IMG/VR virus record: IMGVR_UViG_3300030090_002860 | Span: 1-27,219 of that record | Length of the DNA stretch: 27,219 nt | Source of the DNA: a virus | Strand: one strand, 5' to 3' | Shown: positions 3,926-26,473 of the stretch, piece by piece | Numbering within the stretch: the stretch's first letter is position 1 | How the letters are laid out: every line of letters begins with the position of its first letter | Notes under the pieces: model-generated | Databases searched by the model: none | What the model was told of the DNA's origin: nothing | The model's input: the letters and a program-made list of their open reading frames with translations, nothing else | Program-made: the position numbers and the translations under genes

Positions 3926-5068
3926 CTACACTAATGCTTTAGCATGCTCAATAGCTGAATCATCAAGCGACTGAGCAACATCATTAGGTACATAATCTTT
4001 CTGCGAATACGAAGTAATAGCCTGAGCTACACCAAACGCAGTCAAATCAGTACCCATAACAAAGTCATCAAAGATACCCATAGCGACATCATCATCGAAT
4101 GCCGTCTGCAAATAAGTATTAACAACTTGAACGCCGACAGGTTTCTTCAAACCTTGAAGCTCATTCACCTTAGCCTGAATAAAATCAGGATGAGCTATCT
4201 CAACAACCTTGTCAATAGTTTCAGATGTAATCAACTCAGTAGTCGCACGTAACGTACGCTGAGAAACAACACCAGATTCTAAACTAGCACCAAGGTGAAC
4301 CTTACGATAAATATCTTCAGTCAATGTCATGCCATTATCACAAACTTTAATGATAACAGAAGGCACAAGACTGAAAGCACCAGCGCCAACCTCAGAGTTA
4401 CGTATCTCAATACCCATAAACACAATGGGGTTATCAATGCCACGATGACCAGTAAACGGTGACGTGTAATTACGCAACAATTCCTCAGCTACCACATGCA
4501 ACTGAGGTATGTTAATACGAGCACGCATTTGCGTATCGCTAACAGATGCAGGGCCAGGCTCAAAATCAATACCATGTTCTTCACGAACAGCTTTAAAACC
4601 CTCGAAAACAGCGGCAAGAATATCAAAATTCTCAATAATACTGTAACTAGGAGAAACAACAGCACGGCAAAAGAAATCTCTACCATTAGGGTCAATCAAA
4701 CCACGCAACATAACATCACGTTCTTCTACCCGATTGGTAGTATTCATAATTTCTTTAGCCAACTCAGGATAAGCATAAGTTTCATGACCAACAAGCTTAG
4801 ACATATACTTAGCTGGAACATTAAACTTATGACACCACTGACGCAAAGCATGAGGCGTCAACTCCCAATCACGAGGGGGTAAACCCACGCCTTCCGAAGT
4901 TAAAACGTCACCTATCTCAGGAGTACGAAGAAAACCAGGTACATGACTGACCAAATCCTTCGTATTCACCACAATATCGTGGCGAGCATCCCGAACAGCT
5001 GACAAATTTTCTTTCAGCTCACTAAAGGTAATATTTTTACCCCTAGTTTGCTCTATAATACTAGACAT
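3926..5068 (-). CDS. DUF932-like phage protein (380 aa)
   Basis: The start is the ATG at 5068, with AGAAAGGACAAAAT upstream; the frame stays open for 18 codons above it but these read as a lysine run through the ribosome binding site. The sequence has the usual course of DUF932 / phage-plasmid-like proteins: ELTPHALRQWCHKFNVPAKYM near residue 75-95, then LRGL..., RAVVSPSYSIIENFDILAAV, a GIEIRNSEVGAGAFSLVPSVIIKVCDNGM segment, and a helical C-terminal half. Family assignment is by pattern memory, moderately sure. Molecular role is not established; these genes usually sit with phage replication or recombination genes, as here. The gene ends immediately before the structured RNA region. Confidence 0.75.
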   Translation of the reverse strand: MSSIIEQTRGKNITFSELKENLSAVRDARHDIVVNTKDLVSHVPGFLRTPEIGDVLTSEGVGLPPRDWELTPHALRQWCHKFNVPAKYMSKLVGHETYAYPELAKEIMNTTNRVEERDVMLRGLIDPNGRDFFCRAVVSPSYSIIENFDILAAVFEGFKAVREEHGIDFEPGPASVSDTQMRARINIPQLHVVAEELLRNYTSPFTGHRGIDNPIVFMGIEIRNSEVGAGAFSLVPSVIIKVCDNGMTLTEDIYRKVHLGASLESGVVSQRTLRATTELITSETIDKVVEIAHPDFIQAKVNELQGLKKPVGVQVVNTYLQTAFDDDVAMGIFDDFVMGTDLTAFGVAQAITSYSQKDYVPNDVAQSLDDSAIEHAKALV

Positions 5069-5099
5069 ATTTTGTCCTTTCTTTTTTCTATATTTTTTC

Positions 5100-5396
5100 T
5101 TATTCTTCTTGATCATCTTCAAGAAGAACAGACCATATTAACTCAACACTAGGATTATCATCAATTTGATTGATAAAATCTATGATAGTACTGTCATTAG
5201 CTGTTTTAATTAACAAATCACGGAACATTTCACGCAATTCAACAGCTTTCCCATACGTTTTAGGCGAAACATCATCATCAGACGAAACTTTAGCAAAAAA
5301 CATAAACTGTTCCGCAAGAGCCACCTGAATAGAGATTAATTCGTCCTCAGTCAACGTAATTGAGTAATTTCCATCATTATTTATGAGCAAAACCAC
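5100..5396 (-). CDS. Acidic protein of unknown function (98 aa)
   Basis: Start GTG at 5396 with AAAGGAGAAAAT upstream. An overlapping ATG two bases earlier opens only a five-codon frame, so the GTG is chosen. The protein has a predicted strand then helices (ITLTEDELISIQVALAEQFMFF...) and a very acidic C-terminus (LLEDDQEE). No family recognised. The end lies 31 nt before the DUF932-like start, so both are probably co-transcribed. A possible promoter lies about 70 nt upstream in an AT-rich gap. Confidence 0.65.
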   Translation of the reverse strand: MVLLINNDGNYSITLTEDELISIQVALAEQFMFFAKVSSDDDVSPKTYGKAVELREMFRDLLIKTANDSTIIDFINQIDDNPSVELIWSVLLEDDQEE

Positions 5397-5461
5397 ATTT
5401 TCTCCTTTCTTTTTCTTTTAATTCTTTTAATTTAGACACAAAACGTACCACAATCACCAAA

Positions 5462-5490
5462 AAAATATCAACTTTTGTCTACACCATCAA
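5462..5490 (-). promoter_or_regulatory. Possible sigma70-type promoter upstream of the 98-aa gene
   Basis: On the minus strand TTGATG (5490-5485) is followed after 17 nt by TATTTT (5467-5462), about 65 nt before the GTG at 5396. It sits just downstream of a terminator-like hairpin, where a new transcript would be expected. Both hexamers match only partly and the region is AT-rich, so chance matches are likely. Confidence 0.3.
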
Positions 5491-5519
5491 AAGCCTGTGA
5501 CCAGCACAAACAGCACCAA

Positions 5520-5565
5520 TAGTAATAATAATAATAATAAATAGACAAAATAATAATAATAATAA
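5520..5565. repeat. Two TAA trinucleotide tracts
   Basis: Two runs of the trinucleotide TAA/ATA (about 5521-5541 and 5549-5563) flank the short segment ATAGACAAAA, in the 226-nt gap between the 98-aa gene and the zinc-ribbon gene. The unit TTTTGTCTA occurs three times nearby: two direct copies (within 5471-5481 and 5615-5625) and an inverted copy (5542-5550). On the minus strand the first tract forms the U-rich tail of the adjacent hairpin. Confidence 0.7.
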
Positions 5566-5610
5566 GGGTACTAGGTAGTGTGTTAACTATTGGAGGCCTA
5601 CCTAGTACCC
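5566..5610 (-). terminator. Terminator-like hairpin, 13-bp perfect stem
   Basis: GGGTACTAGGTAG (5566-5578) is exactly complementary to CTACCTAGTACCC (5598-5610), with a 19-nt loop. On the minus strand it follows the zinc-ribbon stop codon by 12 nt and is followed by repeated TTA ending in TTTT, a U-rich though interrupted tail. A terminator for the upstream minus-strand operon is the simplest reading. The stem is not especially GC-rich, so an RNA processing site or a protein-binding palindrome remains possible. Confidence 0.6.
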
Positions 5611-5622
5611 AAAAACTTTTGT

Positions 5623-5787
5623 CTAATGGCTATCCGACCAATTCGCACCACCACAAAACTTACAATCAGGATAATCCTTAAACACACGATCAGAATAAAT
5701 AGCACGACAATCCAAACACCTCACCCAAAACTTAGCCTTCTTATAACCCACACGCTTAGGCTTCTCAACATCAAAATCAAAGTCCAT
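5623..5787 (-). CDS. Zinc-ribbon mini-protein (54 aa)
   Basis: Two knuckles, CLDC and CKFCGG, separated by about 16 residues, form a treble-clef or rubredoxin-like zinc ribbon; the rest is basic N-terminally (KPKRVGYKKAKFWVRC). The ATG at 5787 is chosen because GGAG lies 5 nt upstream; a start at 5814 is possible but lacks a ribosome binding site. The start overlaps the end of the transglycosylase gene by 11 nt, so the two are coupled. Likely binds nucleic acid or a protein partner through the zinc site; that is inference from the fold only. Confidence 0.7.
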   Translation of the reverse strand: MDFDFDVEKPKRVGYKKAKFWVRCLDCRAIYSDRVFKDYPDCKFCGGANWSDSH

Positions 5788-6181
5788 AACAACTCCAATG
5801 TTGCCAACCACCATGACGAGCAGTCAACAACCAAGCCGAAGCAAAAATATTAGCAACAGGATTCAAAGGCGAATACCCAGGCATACCAATAGCCTCAGCA
5901 CGAGCATCCCACCACCTAGGCATATGTTGCATGAGCCCAGAAGCTTGATCCTTAGGATTATCATAAACCCGATCATTAACAGCACTAGGATCACCACGAG
6001 ACTCACAATGCATCACACGCATAAACGTATCAAACTCCTCAGGAATGCCATACACCTCCAACGCAAGCTCCACAATAGGCGCCCAACGATCAACATCATG
6101 ACCCCAACGCTCATAATCATTAGCCTGCATCATCGCAGAAGGCATCCAAGGGACACAAAAAAACCATAATAAATTTAACAT
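5777..6181 (-). CDS. Lytic transglycosylase-like muramidase with N-terminal signal (134 aa)
   Basis: A small SLT/lysozyme-fold enzyme expected to cleave the peptidoglycan glycan strand. MHCESRGDPSAV carries the catalytic Glu (residue 60), followed by ASGLMQHMP (81-89), the GLMQ motif of the transglycosylase family, and a C-terminal GGWQHWSCYGL. The first 20 residues (MLNLLWFFCVPWMPSAMMQA) look like a short signal sequence or membrane anchor. The start ATG at 6181 has GGAG at good spacing; the longer open frame upstream runs through strong hairpins and is not believed. Found in the early arm, away from the M15-type endolysin at 16491, so it may be a virion-entry or accessory lysis enzyme. Confidence 0.82.
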   Translation of the reverse strand: MLNLLWFFCVPWMPSAMMQANDYERWGHDVDRWAPIVELALEVYGIPEEFDTFMRVMHCESRGDPSAVNDRVYDNPKDQASGLMQHMPRWWDARAEAIGMPGYSPLNPVANIFASAWLLTARHGGWQHWSCYGL

Positions 6182-6223
6182 ACTCACTCTCCAAATAATC
6201 GCTAGGGCTACTATCCTTGCATG

Positions 6224-6373
6224 GCTTACGAACGTATGCGAGGAGCGTAGCAATGAACTTGAAAGACTCTCCATTGCGGAGTTGGAGAGCCTTACTAGAG
6301 AACTATGCGGAGAAAGCAACAAACCACATAGTTCTCTAGTAAAGGGGCAGAAGGATGGGGGATCCTCCTGCCC
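6224..6373 (-). other. Cluster of four hairpins in a 200-nt intergenic region
   Basis: The gap between the transglycosylase start and the DUF669-like stop contains successive inverted repeats: GCTTACG/CGTAGC (6224-6230/6246-6251, one bulge), CTCTCCA/TGGAGAG (6267-6273/6283-6289), a perfect 16-bp pair (6292-6307/6327-6342, 19-nt loop), and GGGCAG plus GGAT pairing with ATCC plus CTGCCC (6345-6373). The last one follows the DUF669-like gene by 8 nt on the minus strand and could terminate it, although its trailing U tract is only CCTTT. The rest may form a structured leader for the transglycosylase mRNA. The stems are seen directly; the role is inferred. Confidence 0.6.
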
Positions 6374-6381
6374 ACGATACA

Positions 6382-6843
6382 TCAGCTATCGCTGGAAGCA
6401 CGAGTCACGCCACTCCACTCATAACGAGGGAAGATGCGCCCATCAGTGCCTTCCTCATGATCTACCACATAGACAGAAGCCTCAGTGATGGATTCTAGGT
6501 CAGACGCTATAGCATTAAGGTCACCAGACTGGATAAGTTCAGCAGGTACGCCAAGTGCAAGCAGTCGCTCAATAGTAATACGAGTACCAGTAGTAGAGGT
6601 AGTAGAGAAGGTAAAGTTCTCAAAGTGAGCAATACCCTCAGCGCCCTCACTGGACACATTACTAAAGCCTAGAAGGATAGTAGGATTGCCTGAACGAGAT
6701 TCTTTAACTCGTGCGAACTCAATGTTCACATAGAAGTCAGAACCCATATCAGGAACAATCTCCATATCTCCGCCACGGACATAACCGTCAGGCAGGTCAG
6801 AAGTATCCGACATAGCTTGGTTGATAAGGTCAGCAATATTCAT
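6382..6843 (-). CDS. DUF669-like, possible ssDNA-binding protein (153 aa)
   Basis: The start ATG at 6843 is preceded by AAAGGATATTCCT. The middle of the protein (FYVNIEFARVKESRSGNPTI, then LLGFSN and AHFENFTFS) resembles DUF669 and related phage OB-fold proteins, in which a strand with K-x-S-x-S-G-N-P is typical and which are often linked to single-strand DNA binding or annealing. The acidic C-terminal half ending DSITEAS-like and ASSDS would fit an SSB-type protein-interaction tail. The assignment is by pattern memory, not by search. Its neighbours include recombination and replication genes, in agreement. Confidence 0.5.
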   Translation of the reverse strand: MNIADLINQAMSDTSDLPDGYVRGGDMEIVPDMGSDFYVNIEFARVKESRSGNPTILLGFSNVSSEGAEGIAHFENFTFSTTSTTGTRITIERLLALGVPAELIQSGDLNAIASDLESITEASVYVVDHEEGTDGRIFPRYEWSGVTRASSDS

Positions 6844-6867
6844 AGGAATATCCTTTCATTATATTTT

Positions 6868-7056
6868 TTAAAATGGATCAAGTGCAGATACATCCAAAGG
6901 CGCATCACACACAAGATCACTAAGCTGGGCTACCGATTTGATAACCCAACGAATTTGCGGACAATTCTCAATAGAACGATCCGAAGAATAATTGATAAAT
7001 GCACTACGACATTCATACAATGCAATAACTAACTTAATTACATCTTCATCAGTCAC
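6868..7056 (-). CDS. Small protein of unknown function (62 aa)
   Basis: Starts with GTG at 7056, with AAAGGATAAGT upstream. A helical, mildly acidic protein (MTDEDVIKLVIALYECRSAF...) with three cysteines and no recognisable domain. It lies 24 nt upstream of the DUF669-like gene and 13 nt after the lipoprotein gene, in the same operon. The strong ribosome binding site is the main support. Confidence 0.6.
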   Translation of the reverse strand: MTDEDVIKLVIALYECRSAFINYSSDRSIENCPQIRWVIKSVAQLSDLVCDAPLDVSALDPF

Positions 7057-7069
7057 ACTTATCCTTTCT

Positions 7070-7399
7070 TTAATTCTTACAATTTATTATTTTACTTTTT
7101 ACTTCAATTCTTTTATTACTTCTATAATCAGTGCGGATAGGTAGATATGTAATTTCTCTACCTTCTAAATGCGACCTAAGGCACATCATCTGTAATTGAC
7201 CGTGCGGTAGGTCTACACTTATGTCCAGGTAATTAAGAACGTCAGCAGTAATACCATTATTAAGTTGTACTGTGTTAGAGTCCAAGACCTTCACGACTGT
7301 TGCGACACAGTACGGATTGCAAATAGGTTGCACTGTGTCGCACGCAGTCGACAATAGAAAGGTCAGGAAGATCGCTAACGTTTTGCACGTGGCGGACAT
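7070..7399 (-). CDS. Putative lipoprotein with degenerate thermonuclease-like fold (109 aa)
   Basis: The N-terminus (MSATCKTLAIFLTFLLSTAC) is a lipoprotein signal peptide with lipobox LSTAC and acceptor Cys 20. The mature part begins VATVVKVLDSNTVQLNNGITADVLNYLDI, matching the first strands of the staphylococcal nuclease OB fold (V-x-x-V-x-D-G-D-T-x-x-L...G...V-x-L-x-x-I) but with the active-site G-D-T changed to S-N-T and no R-L-x-G-I-D-A-P-E motif. The nuclease activity is therefore probably lost. It could be a surface lipoprotein displayed on the infected cell. The start at 7399 has AAGGGTAA upstream; it overlaps the 32-aa gene by 25 nt. Confidence 0.6.
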   Translation of the reverse strand: MSATCKTLAIFLTFLLSTACDTVQPICNPYCVATVVKVLDSNTVQLNNGITADVLNYLDISVDLPHGQLQMMCLRSHLEGREITYLPIRTDYRSNKRIEVKSKIINCKN

Positions 7400-7473
7400 T
7401 TACCCTTGGGGCATTTACAGTTGACATACCTGCCAATCTTGCCGTCACGATTTTTAAATACTAATGGTTTCAT
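7375..7473 (-). CDS. Cysteine-rich basic mini-protein (32 aa)
   Basis: A 32-codon frame starting MKPLVFKNRDGKIGRYVNCK and ending in a basic tail, with three cysteines spaced C-x-C-x4-C (residues 19-26) among Lys and Pro. The ATG at 7473 is preceded by AAAGGATAATGT, the normal ribosome binding site of this arm, and the gene directly follows a terminator plus dyad that seem to start a new unit. It overlaps the lipoprotein start in another frame. Reality rests on the ribosome binding site and position, with no known homologue recalled. Confidence 0.5.
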   Translation of the reverse strand: MKPLVFKNRDGKIGRYVNCKCPKGKCPPRAKR

Positions 7474-7513
7474 ACATTATCCTTTCTTTTATTTACACTA
7501 CTTTTTTATTTCT

Positions 7514-7528
7514 ATTACTTGTTGTAAC
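7514..7528 (-). promoter_or_regulatory. Dyad element E0 with ACAACAA core
   Basis: On the minus strand GTTAC-AACAA-GTAAT, a 5-bp dyad (outer G.U) placed directly after the terminator of the 293-aa gene and about 40 nt before the start of the 32-aa gene. It is a diverged member of the series found before the small genes further right: the arm sequence differs but pairing and the ACAACAA centre are kept. Confidence 0.45.
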
Positions 7529-7534
7529 GAAAAG

Positions 7535-7556
7535 AGGGAGAGCCGAGGCCCTCCCT
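7535..7556 (-). terminator. Intrinsic terminator after the 293-aa gene
   Basis: On the minus strand AGGGAGGGC and GCTCTCCCT form a 9-bp stem, including one G.U pair, closed by a CTCG tetraloop and followed by CTTTT. It lies 7 nt after the stop codon of the 293-aa gene. Its design matches the terminators at 8952, 9226 and 9470. Confidence 0.75.
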
Positions 7557-7563
7557 GATTCCG

Positions 7564-8445
7564 TCATGACCAGTCTTCCTCCATAAGCTCAGCTATGGAC
7601 AATTCCTCGTCAATGTCTTGATGGATACGGTTAGTCTCACGTGTCTTACCTTTGGAGGTAATGACTTTGCGAGTTTCTTTCTTGACATCTTTCGATTCAT
7701 CAATAAAGAAATCGTTTGTCAACTGATACAAGCCGGACTCAATCAACTTGGATTGAGTGTCATCGGTATCCCACAAGGTTTCGTCACGAGATTGCTTTTG
7801 GTTGCGATAAACACAAGCCATGTAATTCTGACTTAACCTGACGAATACGTTGAGCCAGTGATCACCTGCAACTATGTTGCTGAATCCAATAGGCTCAAAT
7901 ACGTATTTGTGTGGACGACCTTGACGGTCCTTTTTGATAGTGCCACTTGCAAGGTTATCGTAGAGTGGGTGGTTAAAAGCTTTGCCATCGTTCTCGTAAA
8001 TACGAGCAACAATGATTGCTTTGCCACGATACTCTGGAGACTTGCCACTGACAAAGTGCCAGTAGTCAATAACTCGTAACTGATAACCTAACAGAGTGCC
8101 AACAACTTCTGACATGTCGATAGTCTCGAAACTGACTGAGACTTGATCAATCCAGAAATTCTTGACTGGATCATCGTCAGTGAAGTTGCGATTGATAAGA
8201 CCATTGTTATCGTAATAACTCATGTCATTATCACGCTCATCAGTTTGCGTGACCCATGTTCTGCCGAACAATAAGCCTTTGTTTGACATCATCTCGTTAT
8301 AAGGACCATAACGTTCAGGGTCGCCAGAGTCACGATCTGCAAAACCGTGAAGAGCTGACAACGACGCTACGACTTCCTGAGAGAAGTTAGCAAAAGCTTC
8401 GTCGGGTGGCGTTTCAGTTCCACCATCATATGTTTGATATACCAT
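7564..8445 (-). CDS. Unknown phage protein (293 aa)
   Basis: Start ATG at 8445 with AATAGAAAGGTAATAC upstream. The protein is hydrophilic and acidic at both ends (TPPDEAF near the start, ELSIAELMEEDWS at the end), with a central part rich in aromatic residues (YYDNNGLINRNF, NFWIDQVSVSFE, LRVIDYWHFV) that suggests a folded mixed alpha/beta domain. No catalytic motif, signal peptide or membrane segment is visible and no family is recognised. It forms its own transcription unit: a structured 96-nt element precedes it and an intrinsic terminator follows. This unusual leader suggests post-transcriptional or attenuation control. Confidence 0.75.
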   Translation of the reverse strand: MVYQTYDGGTETPPDEAFANFSQEVVASLSALHGFADRDSGDPERYGPYNEMMSNKGLLFGRTWVTQTDERDNDMSYYDNNGLINRNFTDDDPVKNFWIDQVSVSFETIDMSEVVGTLLGYQLRVIDYWHFVSGKSPEYRGKAIIVARIYENDGKAFNHPLYDNLASGTIKKDRQGRPHKYVFEPIGFSNIVAGDHWLNVFVRLSQNYMACVYRNQKQSRDETLWDTDDTQSKLIESGLYQLTNDFFIDESKDVKKETRKVITSKGKTRETNRIHQDIDEELSIAELMEEDWS

Positions 8446-8463
8446 GTATTACCTTTCTATTGA

Positions 8464-8559
8464 ATAGCCGTATTGCAACGGCATGTGGGTTTGGAAACAG
8501 CGCCACCGGCGTGAGCCGGTATACTTGCGCCCAAACCCTTGCCGTTCCGCAGGGGCTAT
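8464..8559 (-). ncRNA. Compact rod-like structured leader or small RNA (96 nt)
   Basis: Six nested stems fold the whole segment into one rod: ATAGCC 8464-8469/GGCTAT 8554-8559; TGC 8474-8476/GCA 8549-8551; AACGGCA 8477-8483/TGCCGTT 8540-8546; GGGTTTGG 8487-8494/CCAAACCC 8531-8538; GCGC 8500-8503/8527-8530; ACCGGC 8505-8510/GCCGGT 8515-8520. That is 34 Watson-Crick pairs. On the minus strand it ends a few bases before the ribosome binding site of the 293-aa gene, as a 5' leader. A competing hairpin GCCGT/ACGGC (8467-8471/8478-8482) would break the rod, a switch-like arrangement. The apical loop reads GTGA (GNRA) on the plus strand and TCAC on the minus, so strand is not certain. No known riboswitch class was recognised. 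Confidence 0.65.
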
Positions 8560-8570
8560 AGTTAATGAAT

Positions 8571-8586
8571 GTACACATGCGTGTAC
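8571..8586 (-). promoter_or_regulatory. Dyad element, GTACAC-N4-GTGTAC
   Basis: A perfect 6-bp dyad placed between the T tract of the terminator at 8593 and the rod-like leader. The outer arms are the same as in the other dyads, but the centre on the minus strand is GCAT instead of the conserved ACAA. Confidence 0.55.
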
Positions 8587-8592
8587 AAAAAA

Positions 8593-8614
8593 TGGGAGGA
8601 CAAATGCCCTCCCA
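8593..8614 (-). terminator. Intrinsic terminator after the 92-aa gene
   Basis: TGGGAGG (8593-8599) pairs exactly with CCTCCCA (8608-8614), with an 8-nt loop. On the minus strand it is followed by six T residues and lies 7 nt after the stop codon of the 92-aa gene. Confidence 0.8.
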
Positions 8615-8621
8615 AGATTTG

Positions 8622-8900
8622 TTATTGCTCTTTATAGATACCGAGTTGCAAACCGAGTTTGTACTCTTTTTCTTCCCAAATCGCTAGGTCTCTTTCTAGC
8701 TTTTTGTTCAGATGCATTTGTTGCTTGGATACCTCAAGACATTGACGAAGCGCTGTTTCAAGCTCGTCAATCCTATTCTGACGATACTTGGCTACTTCGA
8801 GCGCAGTACGTCTACGAGCAAAACATAGAGGGTAATGTCCCCACCATGCCATATGCATTAGGACTTTTTTGTTTTCCCAAGCTTTATATCTCTTAAACAT
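8622..8900 (-). CDS. Coiled-coil protein of unknown function (92 aa)
   Basis: Start ATG at 8900 with AGAAAGAAAGAATA upstream. The N-terminal third is basic and aromatic (MFKRYKAWENKKVLMHMAWW); from about residue 35 a long amphipathic helix with leucine spacing (IDELETALRQCLEVSKQQMHLNKK...) predicts a coiled coil. No family is recognised. It is a single-gene unit bounded by the dyad at 8928 upstream and its own terminator downstream. Confidence 0.65.
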   Translation of the reverse strand: MFKRYKAWENKKVLMHMAWWGHYPLCFARRRTALEVAKYRQNRIDELETALRQCLEVSKQQMHLNKKLERDLAIWEEKEYKLGLQLGIYKEQ

Positions 8901-8927
8901 ATTATTCTTTCTTTCTATTTTTTACTT

Positions 8928-8945
8928 ATACACCTTGTTGTGTAC
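8928..8945 (-). promoter_or_regulatory. Dyad element E1, ACAACAA core
   Basis: On the minus strand GTACACAACAAGGTGTAT: 6-bp arms with a terminal G.U pair around the conserved core, joined directly to the T tract of the terminator at 8952 and followed by TATAAG. It lies 28 nt before the start of the 92-aa gene. Function as an operator, as part of a promoter or as an RNA hairpin cannot be told from sequence. Confidence 0.6.
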
Positions 8946-8951
8946 AAAAAA

Positions 8952-8973
8952 GGGGAGAGCTCACGCCCTCCCC
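8952..8973 (-). terminator. Intrinsic terminator after the 66-aa gene
   Basis: On the minus strand GGGGAGGGC and GCTCTCCCC form a 9-bp stem (one G.U) closed by a GTGA GNRA tetraloop and followed by six T residues. It begins 7 nt after the stop codon. The same hairpin is repeated exactly at 9226-9247. Confidence 0.85.
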
Positions 8974-8980
8974 AAATTTG

Positions 8981-9181
8981 TTAGCCGTGATACCTGTTAA
9001 GCAAGATATAATGGCGCTCAACGAATAGATCATCAAGAGTGATGTACACAAACTTGCCTAATCTAGTTTCCTTTTCGGATGCCCACCAGCAATGGCGACA
9101 CTCGAATTGGAATTGCATGAGGGCATTTCTCCAACACAAGAGCAAATGCCACTGAAGCTCTTCTATAAATTTGTTAAACAT
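8981..9181 (-). CDS. Small protein of unknown function (66 aa)
   Basis: Start ATG at 9181 with AATAGAAAGGTTAAC upstream. Rich in Trp, Cys and Leu in the first half (LQWHLLLCWRNALMQFQFEC) and more polar later; not clearly a membrane protein. The pattern C-R-x(2-3)-W-x2-E...G-K-F is loosely shared with the 56-aa product of the next unit, hinting at distant paralogy. Single-gene unit between a dyad and a terminator. Confidence 0.6.
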   Translation of the reverse strand: MFNKFIEELQWHLLLCWRNALMQFQFECRHCWWASEKETRLGKFVYITLDDLFVERHYILLNRYHG

Positions 9182-9201
9182 GTTAACCTTTCTATTATTT
9201 T

Positions 9202-9219
9202 ATACACATTGTTGTGTAC
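9202..9219 (-). promoter_or_regulatory. Dyad element E2, ACAACAA core
   Basis: On the minus strand GTACACA-ACAA-TGTGTAT, 7-bp arms (terminal G.U), continuous with the T tract of the terminator at 9226 and followed by a TATAAAATAAT stretch that could serve as a -10. It lies 21 nt before the start of the 66-aa gene. Confidence 0.6.
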
Positions 9220-9225
9220 AAAAAA

Positions 9226-9247
9226 GGGGAGAGCTCACGCCCTCCCC
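9226..9247 (-). terminator. Intrinsic terminator after the 56-aa gene
   Basis: Identical in sequence to the terminator at 8952-8973: a 9-bp stem with a GTGA loop on the minus strand and six following T residues, 7 nt after the stop codon of the 56-aa gene. The duplication of terminator plus dyad suggests that whole cassettes were copied. Confidence 0.85.
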
Positions 9248-9254
9248 AAATTTG

Positions 9255-9425
9255 TTAGCCAAGTTCGATGTCGTGGAAATGACGACCGTACTTAACTTCC
9301 CAACTCCATTCCTCGATACGGCATACAAGCAGTATCCAGTTTATGTAAAGTAAGGATAACCTAATTCGGAAGATTCTATAATCCATCTTCCACATGGCTA
9401 GCTTAAACTTTATAAGTTCTAACAT
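9255..9425 (-). CDS. Small basic-aromatic protein of unknown function (56 aa)
   Basis: Start ATG at 9425 with AATAGAAAGGTTAAT upstream; the frame is open further but there it runs back through the dyad, the terminator and the previous gene. The protein has a hydrophobic centre (LSLLYINWILLV, about residues 23-34) flanked by basic residues and could be membrane-associated; the end is acidic-aromatic (EEWSWEVKYGRHFHDIELG). Unknown family. Own dyad and own terminator. Confidence 0.55.
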   Translation of the reverse strand: MLELIKFKLAMWKMDYRIFRIRLSLLYINWILLVCRIEEWSWEVKYGRHFHDIELG

Positions 9426-9445
9426 ATTAACCTTTCTATTATTAT

Positions 9446-9463
9446 GTACACATTGTTGTGTAC
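9446..9463 (-). promoter_or_regulatory. Dyad element E3, ACAACAA core
   Basis: On the minus strand GTACACA-ACAA-TGTGTAC, a perfect 7-bp dyad, adjoining the T tract of the terminator at 9470 and followed by ATAATAATAG and the AGAAAGG ribosome binding site of the 56-aa gene. Confidence 0.65.
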
Positions 9464-9469
9464 GAAAAA

Positions 9470-9491
9470 GGGAGGAACCGAGGTCCCTCCC
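9470..9491 (-). terminator. Intrinsic terminator after the 93-aa gene
   Basis: On the minus strand GGGAGGGAC and GTTCCTCCC form a 9-bp stem with one G.U pair and a CTCG loop, followed by five T residues, 7 nt after the stop codon. The stem differs from its neighbours in sequence while keeping pairing. Confidence 0.8.
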
Positions 9492-9498
9492 AAAATCG

Positions 9499-9780
9499 TT
9501 ACCGACAGGAATCGTCGGCAAGGTCAGCGCAACCGCAACGAACTGCTTCGTCACGACTGACAACTGCACCAATACATGTACAACTAACGTGGCCTGCAAA
9601 CAGATCCAAGAAGTCGTACGCAATACCATCCACTATGGCGTGGTCGGCAAGTACAGGTCTAACCATGTTGCTTTCTCCTTTCTTATTTATTTCTTTACCT
9701 TTCCGTATTGCACTAGCAAGGTCTAAACGTCCTTGCTTAGTCACAGGAAAAGGGTCTGACCGATATGGTAGACGTGGCAT
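9499..9780 (-). CDS. Cysteine-containing protein of unknown function (93 aa)
   Basis: The start is taken as the ATG at 9780, with AATAGAAAGGTGCATAGTT upstream. A second, stronger ribosome binding site (AAAGGAGAAAGCAAC) precedes an in-frame ATG at 9666, which would give a 55-aa product MVRPVLADHAIVDGIAYDFL..., so two isoforms or a shorter true gene are possible. The C-terminal part has paired cysteines (SCTC, CGC and a late C) that might bind metal. The N-terminal part is basic. No family recognised. Confidence 0.55.
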   Translation of the reverse strand: MPRLPYRSDPFPVTKQGRLDLASAIRKGKEINKKGESNMVRPVLADHAIVDGIAYDFLDLFAGHVSCTCIGAVVSRDEAVRCGCADLADDSCR

Positions 9781-9804
9781 AACTATGCACCTTTCTATTA
9801 ATAA

Positions 9805-9822
9805 GTACACGTTGTTGTGTAC
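9805..9822 (-). promoter_or_regulatory. Dyad element E4, ACAACAA core
   Basis: On the minus strand GTACAC-AACAAC-GTGTAC, a perfect 6-bp dyad, continuous with the T tract of the terminator at 9830 and followed by TTATTAATAGAAAGG, the ribosome binding site of the 93-aa gene. Confidence 0.6.
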
Positions 9823-9829
9823 AAAAAAA

Positions 9830-9848
9830 GGAGGGCTAGATGCCCTCC
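9830..9848 (-). terminator. Intrinsic terminator after the 68-aa gene
   Basis: GGAGGGC (9830-9836) pairs exactly with GCCCTCC (9842-9848), with a 5-nt loop. Runs of seven A and seven T flank it, so on the minus strand it has a seven-T tail, and it could work in both directions. It lies 6 nt after the stop codon of the 68-aa gene. Confidence 0.85.
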
Positions 9849-9854
9849 CTTTTT

Positions 9855-10061
9855 TTATCTGCTCATCCTTTCGTAGAATAGATCAATAATAAACTTTGCA
9901 ACTCGTGGACTGATGTGACCATCATCCTCAAGATCCATAATGTCAGACTCAAACAGCATCATTTGAAGCTCGTTGTCTGGAATTTCCAAGGGGTGAACCC
10001 CACGGATCCTATTGCGCCAAGAGGCTAGAAACCTTTTGACTAAGTTGAATAAAGATAACAT
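9855..10061 (-). CDS. Small protein of unknown function (68 aa)
   Basis: Start ATG at 10061 with TATAGAAAGGAATAC upstream. The N-terminal 20 residues (MLSLFNLVKRFLASWRNRIR) form an amphipathic basic helix that may bind membrane or nucleic acid; the remainder is acidic (MLFESDIMDLEDDG) and ends FIIDLFYERMSR. No family known. Unlike the next four units it has no dyad upstream, and it follows the 89-aa gene by 31 nt, so these two probably share the first transcript of the left arm. Confidence 0.6.
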   Translation of the reverse strand: MLSLFNLVKRFLASWRNRIRGVHPLEIPDNELQMMLFESDIMDLEDDGHISPRVAKFIIDLFYERMSR

Positions 10062-10092
10062 GTATTCCTTTCTATAATGTTAAACGTTAGGG

Positions 10093-10362
10093 CTACACTT
10101 CACGACGGACGTAACGAGTAGGCCACCACGCTGAGGCTTTTGCCTCCGAGGAACGAGGCCACCGCTTGGCGCTTTTGTCAAGTCGAACAACTTTCTTACA
10201 TGGCTTACTAAGTTCGACTTTATAAAAGCGCCTCCACATAACAAACAACGTTAAGCAGAACAGGGTTACTAAGAGGGCTGTCTGATTCGGAACATAATGG
10301 ACAAAAGGCTCTGTGGTGGTCTGCGAAGTTACAGGGGGTGTAGTCGTGAAAGTGTAGACCAT
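10093..10362 (-). CDS. Small single-pass membrane protein (89 aa)
   Basis: First gene of the left arm. Thr/Pro-rich N-terminus (VYTFTTTPPVTSQTTTEPF), one hydrophobic segment (ALLVTLFCLTLFVMW, about residues 29-43), then a long basic tail (RRFYKVELSKPCKKVVRLDK...). The positive tail after the segment predicts N-out/C-in topology. ATG at 10362 has only a weak AGG upstream. Role unknown; it could modify the host membrane early in infection. Confidence 0.55.
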   Translation of the reverse strand: MVYTFTTTPPVTSQTTTEPFVHYVPNQTALLVTLFCLTLFVMWRRFYKVELSKPCKKVVRLDKSAKRWPRSSEAKASAWWPTRYVRREV

Positions 10363-10383
10363 CAGCCTAGGTCACAGCACTCT

Positions 10384-10420
10384 CACACAACAATTGACTA
10401 GATTCGGCTTTTGTTGTGTG
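10384..10420. promoter_or_regulatory. Divergent-arm inverted repeat, candidate operator
   Basis: CACACAACAA (10384-10393) and TTGTTGTGTG (10411-10420) are perfect complements separated by 17 nt, in the short space between the two divergent arms. The core CACAACAA is the same as in the dyads before the small left-arm genes, which suggests that one factor recognises all of them. A -35-like TTGACT lies inside the repeat (10394-10399). Confidence 0.6.
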
Positions 10421-10423
10421 GTG

Positions 10424-10452
10424 TTGACGTTTTGTTTGTCCTGAAGTATGTT
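10424..10452 (+). promoter_or_regulatory. Promoter for endonuclease VII gene, possibly leaderless
   Basis: TTGACG (10424-10429), 17-nt spacer, TATGTT (10447-10452). A start site seven bases after the -10 falls on 10459, the first base of the GTG codon proposed for the endonuclease. This would give a leaderless mRNA and would explain the missing Shine-Dalgarno. It lies immediately after the inverted repeat at 10384-10420, whose right arm ends 3 nt before the -35. Confidence 0.5.
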
Positions 10453-10458
10453 CTAAGT

Positions 10459-10893
10459 GTGGCTACGTCTGATTTTGTTGATAAAAATTTAAAATTTTGT
10501 AGGTATTGCCAGGAGTGGAAGTCTGAGTTTAAGGATAATCAGACGTATTGTGATTCGTGTTGGAAGGTGTATAAGCGTCGGCAGTATCATATTGCGAAGC
10601 ATAAGACTCGTTTGATGGTTGCTCAGGGTGGTCATTGTAAGATTTGTGGTGCGGATTTTGCGTATATGTCTTCTGGTAAGATTCATGTGGATCATTTGCA
10701 TGGTGATCGTTATTTGATTCGTGGGTTATTGTGTTTGCATTGCAATTCTGTGTTGGGGCATTCTTTGGACCGCCCCGATATTTTGCGTAAGGCGGCGGAT
10801 TATTTGGAGGCGACGGAGGCTCGCCCGTTGGAAGATATTTTGGAAGAGCTTGATATGAAGGAATCTGCGAGTAAACTAAAAGGTGTATTCTAG
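10459..10893 (+). CDS. Endonuclease VII-like junction resolvase with zinc ribbon (144 aa)
   Basis: Treble-clef/HNH nuclease of the T4 gp49 type, which resolves branched DNA before or during packaging. Motifs: a first cysteine pair set C14-x2-C17 and C31-x2-C34 (additional N-terminal zinc ribbon), then C60-x2-C63, HVDHLHG with H76, D78 and H79, and IRGLLCLHCNSVLGH with C92-x2-C95-N96, followed by a helix (PDILRKAADYLEA). The GTG at 10459 is chosen because the promoter start site coincides with it; upstream in-frame TTG codons overlap the promoter. First gene of the right arm, next to the packaging genes. Confidence 0.85.
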   Translation: MATSDFVDKNLKFCRYCQEWKSEFKDNQTYCDSCWKVYKRRQYHIAKHKTRLMVAQGGHCKICGADFAYMSSGKIHVDHLHGDRYLIRGLLCLHCNSVLGHSLDRPDILRKAADYLEATEARPLEDILEELDMKESASKLKGVF

Positions 10894-10905
10894 TTAAGGA
10901 GAATT

Positions 10906-11193
10906 ATGGCCGTTCATGGCGAAGACAATGCGCTAAGTACAGCTAGAGAAGTCGTTTGGACTGCTACGCAGGCCGCCTCTATTGATCATCCTAATCTTGT
11001 TTGGGTTGAGAATAAAGATGGCTCTATTGAGATGACTATTGGTGGCGCTGATGTTGCTGATGACTCAAAAGGGTTGACTTTGGCGGCAGGTGCAACCATT
11101 GGACCTATTACGCTGACTCAGCCAGGCGAACAGCTCTATGCTATTGCGGCATCGGGTACACCAACTATTAAAATATTTGTAACAGGAGTTTAA
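10906..11193 (+). CDS. Small beta-rich protein, possible virion accessory (95 aa)
   Basis: Start ATG at 10906 with AAGGAGAATT upstream. Predicted to be almost all beta strand (LVWVENKDGSIEMTIGG..., TLAAGATIGPITL, IKIFVTGV), with Gly/Ala/Thr-rich turns and no catalytic residues. This composition is common in small head-decoration or fibre-associated proteins, but no family is recognised. It sits 12 nt after the endonuclease gene. Confidence 0.65.
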   Translation: MAVHGEDNALSTAREVVWTATQAASIDHPNLVWVENKDGSIEMTIGGADVADDSKGLTLAAGATIGPITLTQPGEQLYAIAASGTPTIKIFVTGV

Positions 11194-11459: not shown

Positions 11460-11747
11460 ATGCCTGCTAAGAAAAAAGATCCTAAGTTAAAAGCGGCTGG
11501 GGTTTCTAAATATAATCAAGTTAAAAAAACACCTAATCATCCTACGAAGTCGCATGTTGTTGTTGCTAGAGAAGGCGGCAAAACTAAAACTATTCGGTTT
11601 GGCCAACAAGGTGTTAAGGGTGCTGGTAAAAACCCTAAAACTGCTAAGGAAAAAGCTAGGCAAAAGTCTTTTAAAGCTCGACATGCTAAAAACATTGCTA
11701 AAGGTAAGATGTCTGCGGCGTATTGGGCTAATAAGACAAAGTGGTAA
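11460..11747 (+). CDS. Basic conserved phage protein (95 aa)
   Basis: Lysine-rich protein with the characteristic stretch HVVVAREGGKTKTIRFGQQG and a C-terminal SFKARHAKNIAKGKMSAAYW followed by ANKTKW. The pattern is common in phages of aquatic bacteria (possibly the DUF6321 group, uncertain) next to terminase genes, as here. A DNA-binding or packaging-associated role is plausible but unproven. ATG at 11460 follows the previous stop by 2 nt; the 3' end overlaps the terminase start by 7 nt. Confidence 0.75.
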   Translation: MPAKKKDPKLKAAGVSKYNQVKKTPNHPTKSHVVVAREGGKTKTIRFGQQGVKGAGKNPKTAKEKARQKSFKARHAKNIAKGKMSAAYWANKTKW

Positions 11748-22515: not shown

Positions 22516-24335
22516 TGCCTACAGAGCAGAAAGATATTGTCACATTTGACGATTGGACTACTGGTCCATGGCATTCGTTAGGTTCTGATCATGGCCCTAA
22601 AAAAGGTTATTTTTATGATTGCGTAAATATGCAGTTGTATGAGAATGGTTCTTTGGGGCCTAGGCCTTGTTTAAAAGAGGTTGGTATTAACGGGGATGTT
22701 TTGTTTCATTCTGCGTATCAGCATTTTGCTGGTGTTGCTTGGTATCAAGCTACTGACTTTAATGCTGGGCCTTTGTCTATAGAAGCAAGCGCTAAGGCTC
22801 GTTTGATGATTATGGAAAAAGGTAGTGGCACTAGGTATTATTGGGATGAGACAGCTCATTCTGCTGGCACTTTAGGTAGTATTGATCATTCTACGTTTAG
22901 ATGTTTTCTTAAACCTGCTAGGTATTCTGAAGCGGCTTGGGATGCTAGTTCTGAAATTCTTATTAGTTCTATGCCGTTTCAATATAAAGGCAGTACTGAT
23001 ATTATTTTTGGTGGTGACGGTTATTTTAATGGTTTAGATGACACTGGAACTGATGGTTATCAAGCTATTACTGCAAGTGGTGACGCTACATTAACATCTA
23101 ATGAGTACCCACAAAACTGGGACCCTATGGGTTTATTTGGTTGGCGTGACAGGTATTGGGCTTGGGGCGATTACGATTCAGGAACTAACTATAACGGCAA
23201 CCGAATATATTATTCCCGTGTAGGGGATATAAGTGATTGGCGAGATGACGACAATGGGGAGAATGCGTTCATTGCCGTAGGAGCTGACCCTGATTTGGCT
23301 ATAGTTGGTTGTTGGCAAACGTTTGATTCTTTACTTATAGCTATGGCTGATGGTAGATGGTATAGGTTTGCGTATACTGATAACCCTGGTTTTGGCGAAA
23401 TTAGATATATAGGCACTAAAATATTGCCTGATTTTTATGTAACTGCCGCTGTTACGGGATCAGCAATTGTATATATAACAAGACAAACAGGTGTTGTTGT
23501 TGCAACTAAAGACAACATAGATGACCAAACGTTTAGTTATGTAAAGATACCTAACGAAGGAGATGACGCTATCGACGCATATTTTATGCGAGGCGTTCCT
23601 TCACACGCACATAACGCTGTGTGTTTACCTTACAAAGTAAAAACTGTAGGTAGCACTGTTACTAATAACGTGTATAAAGGTGACCGTTCTTTAGATTTAG
23701 TTAATGGTGTATGGACTCATCAATTGTATTTTGGTCCAGGTGACGATAGCGTATTAAACCCTGCAATTGTTGATGTTATTCCTATGGGAAATGACCATTG
23801 GGGGTTCTTTGCGTTAGATGAATACAACACACATGCTAATCCTGATAATTCTTTGTACGTTAGACCTGTAACTTTAAATAGACCTTCTAATAGTAATGAT
23901 GCGTTTACGGGCAACACTGAAGTTGCTGTTCATACAACTGATACTGATGACAGATTTGAAGGCGCTATTTGGTTAGCTACCTATAGGCCTCCTGAAAAAA
24001 CATCTGCGGCTATAGAAAAAGTTATTATCGATTTTGATTTTTGGAACTCTAGTGGTTTTACGACACCTGCGTTTACTGTTAAAGCTGATTGTGTACATCA
24101 AGGTGATGAAATAAGCACTATTACTGTAGGTTCGTTAGACGCTACTGAGTTAAGTTCTACTTCTGGAACTGTGTATAAACCAAAGCGAGGTCGTGTAGTT
24201 TTGCGTCCTGCTCGAATGCCTTTGTGTTCTCAAATAAATGTAAGCATTACAGGTATTAAGTCTGTGGCTTTTAATGAAGTAACGGTTGAGTATGCGTATG
24301 AACCGCAAACTCCTTTAACAAACATAAACACATGA
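22515..24335 (+). CDS. Large beta-rich tail protein, tail tube/stabiliser-like (606 aa)
   Basis: The start is the ATG at 22515, overlapping the adaptor stop by one base; an upstream TTG is less likely. The protein is nearly all beta strand, with many Trp, Tyr and Gly residues (FDDWTTGPWHSLGSDHGPKK, ILISSMPFQYKGST, WDPMGLFGWRDRYWAWGDYD, SLLIAMADGRWYRFAYTDNP), consistent with a propeller-like fold as in P22 gp10 or T7 gp12-type tail proteins, which form the short tail beneath the adaptor. No exact family is recognised from sequence alone. Directly followed, with a 4-nt overlap, by the tail fibre. Confidence 0.7.
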   Translation: MPTEQKDIVTFDDWTTGPWHSLGSDHGPKKGYFYDCVNMQLYENGSLGPRPCLKEVGINGDVLFHSAYQHFAGVAWYQATDFNAGPLSIEASAKARLMIMEKGSGTRYYWDETAHSAGTLGSIDHSTFRCFLKPARYSEAAWDASSEILISSMPFQYKGSTDIIFGGDGYFNGLDDTGTDGYQAITASGDATLTSNEYPQNWDPMGLFGWRDRYWAWGDYDSGTNYNGNRIYYSRVGDISDWRDDDNGENAFIAVGADPDLAIVGCWQTFDSLLIAMADGRWYRFAYTDNPGFGEIRYIGTKILPDFYVTAAVTGSAIVYITRQTGVVVATKDNIDDQTFSYVKIPNEGDDAIDAYFMRGVPSHAHNAVCLPYKVKTVGSTVTNNVYKGDRSLDLVNGVWTHQLYFGPGDDSVLNPAIVDVIPMGNDHWGFFALDEYNTHANPDNSLYVRPVTLNRPSNSNDAFTGNTEVAVHTTDTDDRFEGAIWLATYRPPEKTSAAIEKVIIDFDFWNSSGFTTPAFTVKADCVHQGDEISTITVGSLDATELSSTSGTVYKPKRGRVVLRPARMPLCSQINVSITGIKSVAFNEVTVEYAYEPQTPLTNINT

Positions 24336-26473
24336 CGGCTTGGCTTGATTATATTAATAATTTAAATACTGATTTTGATGACGATAGTCCTATTTATTCT
24401 TCTATTAATGTTGGTACTGGATTAGTGCTTAATGGAAACTTGCGTCAAACTCAAGGAGAGATACAAGCAACTGGAGTAAAGCTTGACAGTGTTTCTTTAA
24501 CTACGGTTCAAACTGGTGATGAAAGTTTTGTCGATAATAATACTTCGATTATGACTAGTGCCGCTGTTCAAGATAAGATTGAGTCCTACGGATATACGAC
24601 TGCCACCGGAGATATTACGGGGGTAACGGCAGGAACCGGACTTTCGGGCGGAGGTGCGAGTGGAGCCGTTACCCTCAATGTTTCAGGTCTTACTGTCTCT
24701 GAGTTTGATGGTGCGGCAATTCAAACAGGTACTGAGGTATTTGCTGACAATGACACAACATTAATGACGAGTGCGGCAGTTCAAGATAAAATACTTTCTT
24801 ACAGTTACATTACGGGTGTGACAAATATTAGTGGTAACGCTGGGACTGCTACAGCATTGGAAACAGCACGCACTATAGGTGGCGTTTCATTTGACGGGAC
24901 AGGTAATATCAACCTTCCAGGTGTAAACACAGCAGGTAATCAAGCTACGTCAGGAAACGCCGCAACAGCTACAGCGCTAGAAACAGCACGGAATATAGGC
25001 GGAGTGTCGTTCGATGGGACAGGTAACATTGATTTAGCTGGAGTGAACGCTACAGGTAATCAAGACACTTCTGGCAATGCCGCAACAGCGACAGCTTTAG
25101 AAACGGCTAGGACTATAGGCGGTGTGTCGTTTAATGGTACAGGTAATATTAATCTTCCAGGAGTAAATACATCTGGTAGTCAAGATACCTCAGGTAATGC
25201 GGCTACAGCTACTGCTTTAGCAACTGCTAGGACAATAGGTGGAGTTTCATTTGACGGTACAGGCAATATTGATTTGCCAGGAGTTAATAGTGGAGGCAAT
25301 CAAGCTACATCTGGTAATGCGGCAACTGCCACGGCATTAGAGACAGCACGTACTATAGGTGGTGTATCTTTTGACGGGACAGGTAATATTAATCTGCCAG
25401 GTGTTAATACTGCTGGTAGTCAGGATACGTCTGGGAATGCGGCGACTGCTACTAAATTGGCTACTGCTCGTACTATTAATGGTTTATCGTTTGATGGTAG
25501 TGCAGATGTAACTGGCAACACTTCTATTACTGGTACGTTAACTGTTGGATCTGATGGTTCAGGACATGATGTCAAGTTTTATGGAGCTACTTCTGGGAAA
25601 TACATGGAATGGGATGAGGATGAAGATGACCTTAATGTTTCTGGTGCTCTTAAATTAAGAGGAGGTAGTTTTTCTTCACTTACTAATAACAGTGGAACTG
25701 GTCGTGAAATACTTCAATTAAGGGCTAAAAGCACTACTGCTGATGGTGTTGCATTAAACATGTATGGAGATGGCGACTCTACTAATGCAGGGAGATTTTT
25801 TCTTTATACTGGAGGAACAATTAGTTTTAGAATTGATCAAGACGGCAAAGCAGGATTTAGAGATGATGCAAACGCTAGCATTATAGGTGCTAGGATGCTT
25901 GCATTACGTACTCAAACATCAGGCATGGTTCCTCTTTTAGTATGGAATGATAAAGATGTTGATACTGGTAGTAGGATCGCAAGTATTTTTCAAGTAGGTG
26001 CTAGTGGCGATTCTTCTAACTTAGGTACTAATGACTATTGGGTTTTGTGGCGAAGAGGTAGCGGAAGCAACGCTGGCTATGTTAGAGGTACAGGTAGCTT
26101 AAGTGTTAGTTACGCATCTGCTTCTGACAAAACATTAAAGAATGATTTAGGTGATGCAGGAGATGTATCTAGCATAATTGACGCAATAAATGTCCGTAAA
26201 TTTACATGGAAAGGTGGCAGTTACCCAGACAGAGTAGAAATAGGTTTGTTTGCACAAGATATTTTAGAACTTCAAGATACGACTATATTGCCTATAGGTA
26301 TAGCTACAGAAGCTTCTACTATTAAAGAACAAACTAATATAGATGACGAAGAAGCAGAACCTATTTATGAAGATCAATATGTTCCTGCCGCTATAGATTA
26401 TGCTAAGTTTACGCCTCTTTTAATACAAGAAGTTAAAAGTTTAAGGCAAAGAGTAGCAACTTTAGAAGGATAA
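24332..26473 (+). CDS. Tail fibre with 40-aa repeats and S74 chaperone domain (713 aa)
   Basis: Receptor-binding fibre. It has a short N-terminal attachment part, two copies of an (A/S)AVQDKI segment (about residues 60-83 and 131-154), five full 40-aa repeats plus a partial sixth (residues 168-390, pattern GNAATATALETARTIGGVSF then DGTGNI), a variable beta domain (about 395-585), and a C-terminal intramolecular chaperone (SASDKTLKNDL at 596-606, INVRKFTWKG, IGLFAQDI). The chaperone is of the Peptidase S74 type, which releases itself after trimer folding by using the Ser before Asp (about Ser 598). It ends in a coiled coil (LLIQEVKSLRQRVATLEG). ATGA-type overlap with the preceding gene. Confidence 0.88.
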   Translation: MTAWLDYINNLNTDFDDDSPIYSSINVGTGLVLNGNLRQTQGEIQATGVKLDSVSLTTVQTGDESFVDNNTSIMTSAAVQDKIESYGYTTATGDITGVTAGTGLSGGGASGAVTLNVSGLTVSEFDGAAIQTGTEVFADNDTTLMTSAAVQDKILSYSYITGVTNISGNAGTATALETARTIGGVSFDGTGNINLPGVNTAGNQATSGNAATATALETARNIGGVSFDGTGNIDLAGVNATGNQDTSGNAATATALETARTIGGVSFNGTGNINLPGVNTSGSQDTSGNAATATALATARTIGGVSFDGTGNIDLPGVNSGGNQATSGNAATATALETARTIGGVSFDGTGNINLPGVNTAGSQDTSGNAATATKLATARTINGLSFDGSADVTGNTSITGTLTVGSDGSGHDVKFYGATSGKYMEWDEDEDDLNVSGALKLRGGSFSSLTNNSGTGREILQLRAKSTTADGVALNMYGDGDSTNAGRFFLYTGGTISFRIDQDGKAGFRDDANASIIGARMLALRTQTSGMVPLLVWNDKDVDTGSRIASIFQVGASGDSSNLGTNDYWVLWRRGSGSNAGYVRGTGSLSVSYASASDKTLKNDLGDAGDVSSIIDAINVRKFTWKGGSYPDRVEIGLFAQDILELQDTTILPIGIATEASTIKEQTNIDDEEAEPIYEDQYVPAAIDYAKFTPLLIQEVKSLRQRVATLEG
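24833..25501 (+). repeat. Tandem 120-bp repeats inside the tail fibre gene
   Basis: In-frame units begin at 24833, 24953, 25073, 25193, 25313 and 25433 (the last partial), each 120 bp long and coding for 40 residues. Protein sequence is conserved more strongly than DNA: synonymous sites differ between units, so the array is not recent. Units such as this form the repeated shaft of the fibre. Confidence 0.9.

Follow-up and report, generated by a model that had tools for sequence, protein, structure and literature searches.

How are the successive small early genes of an uncultured phage separated from each other, and does each of them have a start of its own? This question is raised by the virus record IMGVR_UViG_3300030090_002860 (44,003 bases), of which bases 1-27219 are here called the window. 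Within the window, six consecutive minus-strand gene boundaries between positions 9857 and 7514 carry one module, the cassette studied here, dividing seven early genes (B to H). The module runs in the order stop codon, about 6-7 nt, GC-rich hairpin, T tract and dyad, with hairpins of −16 to −18 kcal/mol.

A Terminator-Dyad Module at Six Early Gene Boundaries

In an earlier note on this DNA, elements had been listed at 7514, 8928, 9202, 9446 and 9805, each with a hairpin and a T tract some 6-7 nt past a stop codon and then a dyad. All five were recovered (at 7514-7528, 8928-8945, 9202-9219, 9446-9463 and 9805-9822), but a sixth cassette, at 8624-8571 and with a perfect 16-bp dyad, had been missed. 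Named by the genes that they divide, and all on the minus strand, the cassettes begin with B/C (9790-9857), which consists of the stop codon TAA, a hairpin at 9851-9827, the T tract, the dyad GTACACAACAACGTGTAC at 9822-9805 and the Shine-Dalgarno (SD) sequence AATAGAAAGG at 9799-9790. The next three likewise hold a stop codon, T tract and SD: C/D (9431-9501) with its hairpin at 9491-9470 and the dyad GTACACAACAATGTGTAC at 9463-9446, D/E (9187-9257) with its hairpin at 9247-9226 and the dyad GTACACAACAATGTGTAT at 9219-9202, and E/F (8911-8983) with its hairpin at 8973-8952 and the dyad GTACACAACAAGGTGTAT at 8945-8928. Cassette F/G (8561-8624) has a stop codon, a hairpin at 8614-8593, a T tract and the perfect dyad GTACACGCATGTGTAC at 8586-8571. 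The last, G/H (7501-7566), is degenerate, with the stop codon TGA, a hairpin at 7556-7535, CTTTTC and a weak dyad, GTTACAACAAGTAAT, at 7528-7514. The earlier note had counted the latter with the other dyads; it does stand behind a terminator, but it is only a weak relative, folding as RNA with −1.1 kcal/mol as against −4.7 to −6.8 kcal/mol for the others.

We then compared the module with chance expectation. Six units of hairpin, T tract and dyad are present in the 3-kb block, against a mean of 0.035 and a maximum of 2 in 200 dinucleotide shuffles. A dyad follows every hairpin-T site of the block (6/6); the whole minus strand of the window has eight such sites, the two outside the block being without a dyad, and on the plus strand none of the sites has one (0/4). 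Allowing up to three mismatches, GTACACAACAATGTGTAC has four matches where 0.03 are expected, and terminator-like sites number 13 in 4900-11000, compared to an expected 4.6.

The dyad begins exactly where the T tract ends (0 nt), whereas the SD AATAGAAAGG follows after 5-7 nt in four cassettes, after 109 nt at 8571, where the structured leader intervenes, and after about 25 nt at 7514, and not after the 20-40 nt previously proposed. Since the distance to the T tract is fixed and that to the SD varies, we group the dyad with the terminator and not with the start. Nor is AATAGAAAGG a component of the cassette, as the earlier note had it: an A/T-rich sequence with AGAAAGG precedes most early genes whether a cassette is there or not, and AATAGAAAGG is the general Shine-Dalgarno sequence of this phage, not part of a special module.

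Dyads and hairpins were compared in a table made by hand, as the alignment (A2) displaced the dyads with 4-nt loops and one hairpin by 1-2 columns. The dyad arms (5-7 bp) are nearly invariant, GTACAC/GTGTAY, and the spacer between them differs in sequence and in length (4-6 nt). The stem of the terminator hairpin is maintained despite sequence changes and can be extended if ACRA, which follows the stop codon, pairs with TYGT, with which the T tract ends. The two sides covary, ACAAA occurring with TTTGT, ACGA with TCGT and ACGGA with TTCGT, and the extended stem takes in the first two bases of the dyad. Cassettes D/E and E/F are exactly identical over 49 nt, beginning at the stop codon, behind the unrelated genes D and E. 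A GC-rich hairpin followed by a T tract is what defines an intrinsic terminator, and the cassettes have both; the prediction from sequence that such a terminator closes each upstream gene is thus well supported.

Distribution of the Module and Gene Turnover between Its Copies

Two contigs encode gene G at 95-96% identity, L032 (3300017771_000199) and L033 (3300017733_000030), and both carry cassettes in copy numbers differing from that of the window. The conservation in relatives that the earlier note had set as a test holds for these two close relatives but not further out: more distant contigs, with terminases 84-87% identical and an endonuclease VII gene in common, have no cassette-like repeats in the corresponding interval (L085-L087). 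In IMG/VR, the dyad pattern was found in 26 contigs, of which only the record of L032 (L012) has the cassette, the others being without a hairpin or T tract; the composite pattern of hairpin, T tract and dyad was found in the two relatives and in seven contigs without the cassette, and gave two chance-like matches in 84,980 species genomes. Judged by these searches, the module is confined to one small clade within the collections searched. In summary, the cassette is a genuine, non-random, clade-specific gene-boundary module.

Homology between the window and L033 covers 10454-10065, 9798-9423 and then 8613 onward. What L033 lacks (10064-9799) is gene B together with the terminator and dyad that belong to it. 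A ATAGAAAGG-type sequence stands on either side, and the breakpoints 10065 and 9798 each lie at an AGAAAGG SD. The other two breakpoints fall on the D start codon (9423) and on the F/G hairpin (8613); the interval holds genes D, E and F in the window and a single unrelated open reading frame (ORF) of 29 codons in L033. Between L032 and L033, homology again stops at a start codon and returns at a hairpin, with 99.4% identity beyond. L032 lacks E and F of the window, and in this comparison one breakpoint (9277) lies inside the end of D. The comparison of the three genomes shows that whole genes were gained, lost or exchanged between cassettes, the cassettes themselves staying in place. This pattern supports a cassette-mediated exchange but does not prove it, because selection for intact genes would in part leave breakpoints at gene edges anyway.

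Possible Functions of the Module

We consider it an evenly balanced question whether each boundary is a composite terminator-plus-start cassette that insulates each accessory early gene. By its sequence, the terminator ends the upstream gene. The sequence-constrained dyad, beginning where the T tract stops, and the A/T-rich stretch that follows would together start or control the next unit, perhaps as a promoter with an operator that is read by the host or a phage-modified RNA polymerase. Every accessory early gene would thereby be insulated as a transcription unit of its own, and the repetition of the cassettes could provide homology for gene shuffling, as is said of the promoter early stem-loop (PeSL) elements in T4-like phages. 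Because six strong terminators in series precede the remaining early genes, either restarts or antitermination would be required; a restart seems simpler than a resistant polymerase and matches the logic of the PeSLs, and we give it about equal chances of being right or wrong. The earlier proposal that each gene is its own unit is borne out for the ends, which have strong intrinsic terminators, but the separate beginnings follow by logic, as six strong terminators in series would otherwise shut off all genes beyond them, and antitermination would account for the facts as well. A putative regulon of early accessory genes, as suggested in the earlier note, is possible.

Several observations weigh against a terminator-plus-start cassette. 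No sigma-70-like promoter was found in any cassette on the minus strand, although the promoter type of the host may differ, and promoter-like sites are not commoner than in shuffled sequences. No regulator for the dyad was identified among the proteins searched, and an arm spacing of 4, 5 or 6 nt is odd for the operator of a dimer. Changes in the arms preserve G.U pairing on the transcribed strand, which hints at RNA. The gene-edge breakpoints could also be the outcome of selection for intact genes, the breakpoint at 9277 in the L032 comparison falls within gene D, and the cassettes occur in three genomes only.

The G.U pairs lead to a different role, possible though rather doubtful, in which the dyad acts as an RNA hairpin: transcripts would cross the boundary or be processed there, and the hairpin behind the U tract would protect or regulate the 5′ end of the next message. 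With G.U pairs allowed, 11/11 dyads in the three genomes pair fully on the transcribed strand, whereas 6/11 are mismatched on the other strand; the L033 copy GTACAT/GTGTGC is altered in both arms, giving a G.U pair each time, the loop differs in size and sequence, and five of the six window dyads form with a pair probability of at least 0.9 in the wider transcript. However, there are only some four independent arm changes, and the probability that all would be of the G.U type by chance is about 0.06 (one in sixteen if transitions are random, by our estimate), which is suggestive only. Moreover, the arms are nearly invariant beyond the need of a generic hairpin, the degenerate 7514 copy barely folds in context, and six strong terminators must still be passed. 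The passage of these terminators is what an antitermination system would provide, with a single early promoter near 10400 and a cis-acting RNA or a protein factor that allows read-through, the cassettes being conditional stops. Terminators are suppressed by the leader RNA put in phage HK022, and here the early region begins with a structured RNA (about 10090-10450) that has compensatory changes relative to L033 and folds very strongly in relatives. Yet nothing shows that this RNA acts on the polymerase, the relatives with the largest head RNA are without comparable terminators and the dyad is left unexplained, so that we hold this account to be unlikely.

A phage repressor that silences the early genes in the lysogen, with the dyads as its operators or stoperators, would account for sites that are repeated, intergenic, in a single orientation and sequence-specific, like the stoperators of L5 (PMC5712189). 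It is nevertheless improbable: the proteins searched, which do not cover every gene, included no recognisable repressor or integrase, the arm spacing differs between dyads, and dyads occur in this block only, with none at the divergent early/late region. Least probable is a functionless repeat, a terminator-dyad element spread by duplication. The near-identical D/E and E/F copies and the clade-limited distribution would fit, but the other copies have diverged with their stems conserved and the lower stem covarying, and the element lies invariably right at gene ends in a single orientation. A further, speculative combination to which we give a very small chance has the serial terminators as conditional, the head RNA as a cis antiterminator, and the cassettes as setting the reach of early transcription; genes would be exchanged at the palindromes, which the phage's endonuclease VII homologue might cut once they are extruded.

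Genes between the Cassettes, Structured RNAs and Genomic Surroundings

The genes between the cassettes, all on the minus strand, are mostly small and were not recognised by Pfam or PHROGs. Gene B (9855-10061, 68 aa) has no family and is absent from L033 with its cassette; gene C (9499-9780, 93 aa), also without a family, is present in L033, and its 3′ part lies at the contig end in L032. Gene D (9255-9425, 56 aa, no family) is replaced in L033 by the unrelated 29-aa ORF and has a longer version in L032. Genes E (8981-9181, 66 aa, no family) and F (8622-8900, 92 aa, with only a weak match to Rz-like spanins, E = 0.03) are absent from both relatives. Gene G (7564-8445, 293 aa) has neither a family nor a solved relative, and no relative of it was found in GenBank phages; its 95-96% identical counterparts in L032 and L033 were mentioned above. 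After the G/H cassette follows the small ORF H (7375-7473, about 32 aa), read from the sequence.

The SD of gene G is separated from the F/G dyad by a leader RNA of about 95 nt, predicted as a rod of nested helices (8465-8558, minus strand). The surrounding 191 nt (8440-8630) fold with z = −7.4, and the leader is nearly unchanged in L032 and L033. It had no Rfam match at gathering scores, the sub-threshold matches being judged chance, and only spurious matches in GenBank phages. Because no pair is changed on both sides (a few are lost through single changes), the case for its structure lies in the folding energy and the conservation.

At the head of the early region (10064-10454, minus strand) there is no protein gene but a structured RNA (or DNA). 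The ORF at 10093-10362 is not a conserved protein, as the aligned region of L033 has indels of 8 and 2 nt and stops in all three frames. The region folds with z = −2.7, and comparison of the window with L033 shows four pairs in which both partners differ, one of them in the stem GGCGCTTTT/AAAAGCGCC. Counterparts of about 900 nt occur at L085:6900-7800 (minus strand, z −12), L086:2850-3800 (plus strand, z −10) and L087:3440-4400 (plus strand, z −22); these had no Rfam match, and the head region is possibly a new large phage RNA.

No nucleotide match to the window was found in GenBank phages. Early genes occupy the minus strand from about 10060 down to 300 and include an SNF2-type helicase and a transglycosylase-like protein; late genes are on the plus strand, with the terminase at 11741, portal, major head protein, tail protein and endolysin. 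To the right of these, the record also contains primase-like, Sak4-like and exonuclease genes. The terminase, portal and head families were not identified as T4-type, and family searches, by sequence matches only, recognised no transcriptional regulator or RNA polymerase among the tested proteins. A block CCTGAAGTATGTTC at about 10424-10453 (plus strand), upstream of the endonuclease VII gene, is kept in the relatives that cover the region and looks like the −10 region of a late promoter (TTGACG-17-TATGTT in the window). A 713-aa gene at 24332-26473 contains four 120-bp tandem repeats (24833-25492). A 2927-aa protein is encoded at L031:3029-11812 (record 29028-37811, plus strand); it has no useful match in Pfam, PHROG or PDB, and its C-terminal domain is conserved in relatives, where the open frames have about 1,100-4,100 aa. 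A phrog_1362 protein is common to four of the more distant records at 55-60% identity, and in the relative L083 the match (G004:C1:19752-20927, minus strand) holds one in-frame TGA.

Comparison with Known Systems

The earlier note had likened the cassette to the start-associated sequences (SAS) of cluster K and to the L5 stoperators, with different sequences; this is apt as an analogy but fails on sequence. The stoperators are asymmetric 13-mers of the GGTGGMTGTCAAG type bound by the immunity repressor (PMC5712189). The two share short repeated intergenic sites in one orientation, and recombination between copies deletes the intervening DNA. However, stoperators are scattered over the genome, whereas the sites here, of which none is an asymmetric 13-bp GGTGGMTGTCAAG-type site, are palindromic, with six copies in one block. 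SAS are 13-bp GGGATAGGAGCCC repeats, and the extended start-associated sequences (ESAS) are 17-bp inverted repeats with 4-13-bp spacers (PMC3203893). Like these, the dyad is an inverted repeat whose spacer varies and which precedes the starts of small non-structural genes. Unlike them, it is coupled to a terminator and not to a start: the 17-bp arms of ESAS are coupled to the 13-bp SAS at the start, and the element is described without a terminator. No GGGATAGGAGCCC stands at the start codons here, which have the A/T-rich sequence and AGAAAGG upstream, and arms of 5-7 bp with spacers of 4-6 nt are not the 17-bp imperfect repeats of ESAS.

Hairpins between successive early genes are also found in T7-like phages, where they are sites of early RNase III processing; here, in contrast, the first hairpin has a T tract like an intrinsic terminator and the second is constrained in sequence. 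An N4-type hairpin promoter, used by a virion RNA polymerase, was considered because the giant 2927-aa protein is encoded; by sequence, this protein matches no polymerase family or solved structure.

The PeSL cassettes of T4-like phages were reportedly described by Arbiol in 2010 and Comeau in 2014. They are terminator-plus-start cassettes that lie between small shuffled genes (PMC4503421). The present module is similar in that repeated cassettes lie amid small variable early genes, the start region of each next gene comes immediately after a stem-loop terminator, and genes are exchanged between the copies among related phages. It differs in that no recognisable early promoter follows the stem-loop, a constrained palindrome adjoins the T tract, and the phage is an unrelated 44-kb phage, not a T4-like myovirus. 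As analogues, PeSLs are a closer match than SAS, ESAS or stoperators. If the terminator-plus-start reading is right, this strategy for plugging in accessory genes would have had a separate origin in an uncultured, unrelated phage of 44 kb, where the second half is of another kind, a dyad fused to the T tract. The cassette is also an easily spotted signature for accessory-gene slots in unannotated phage genomes. In summary, the module looks like a plug-in socket for accessory genes, with a logic akin to that of the T4-like phages.

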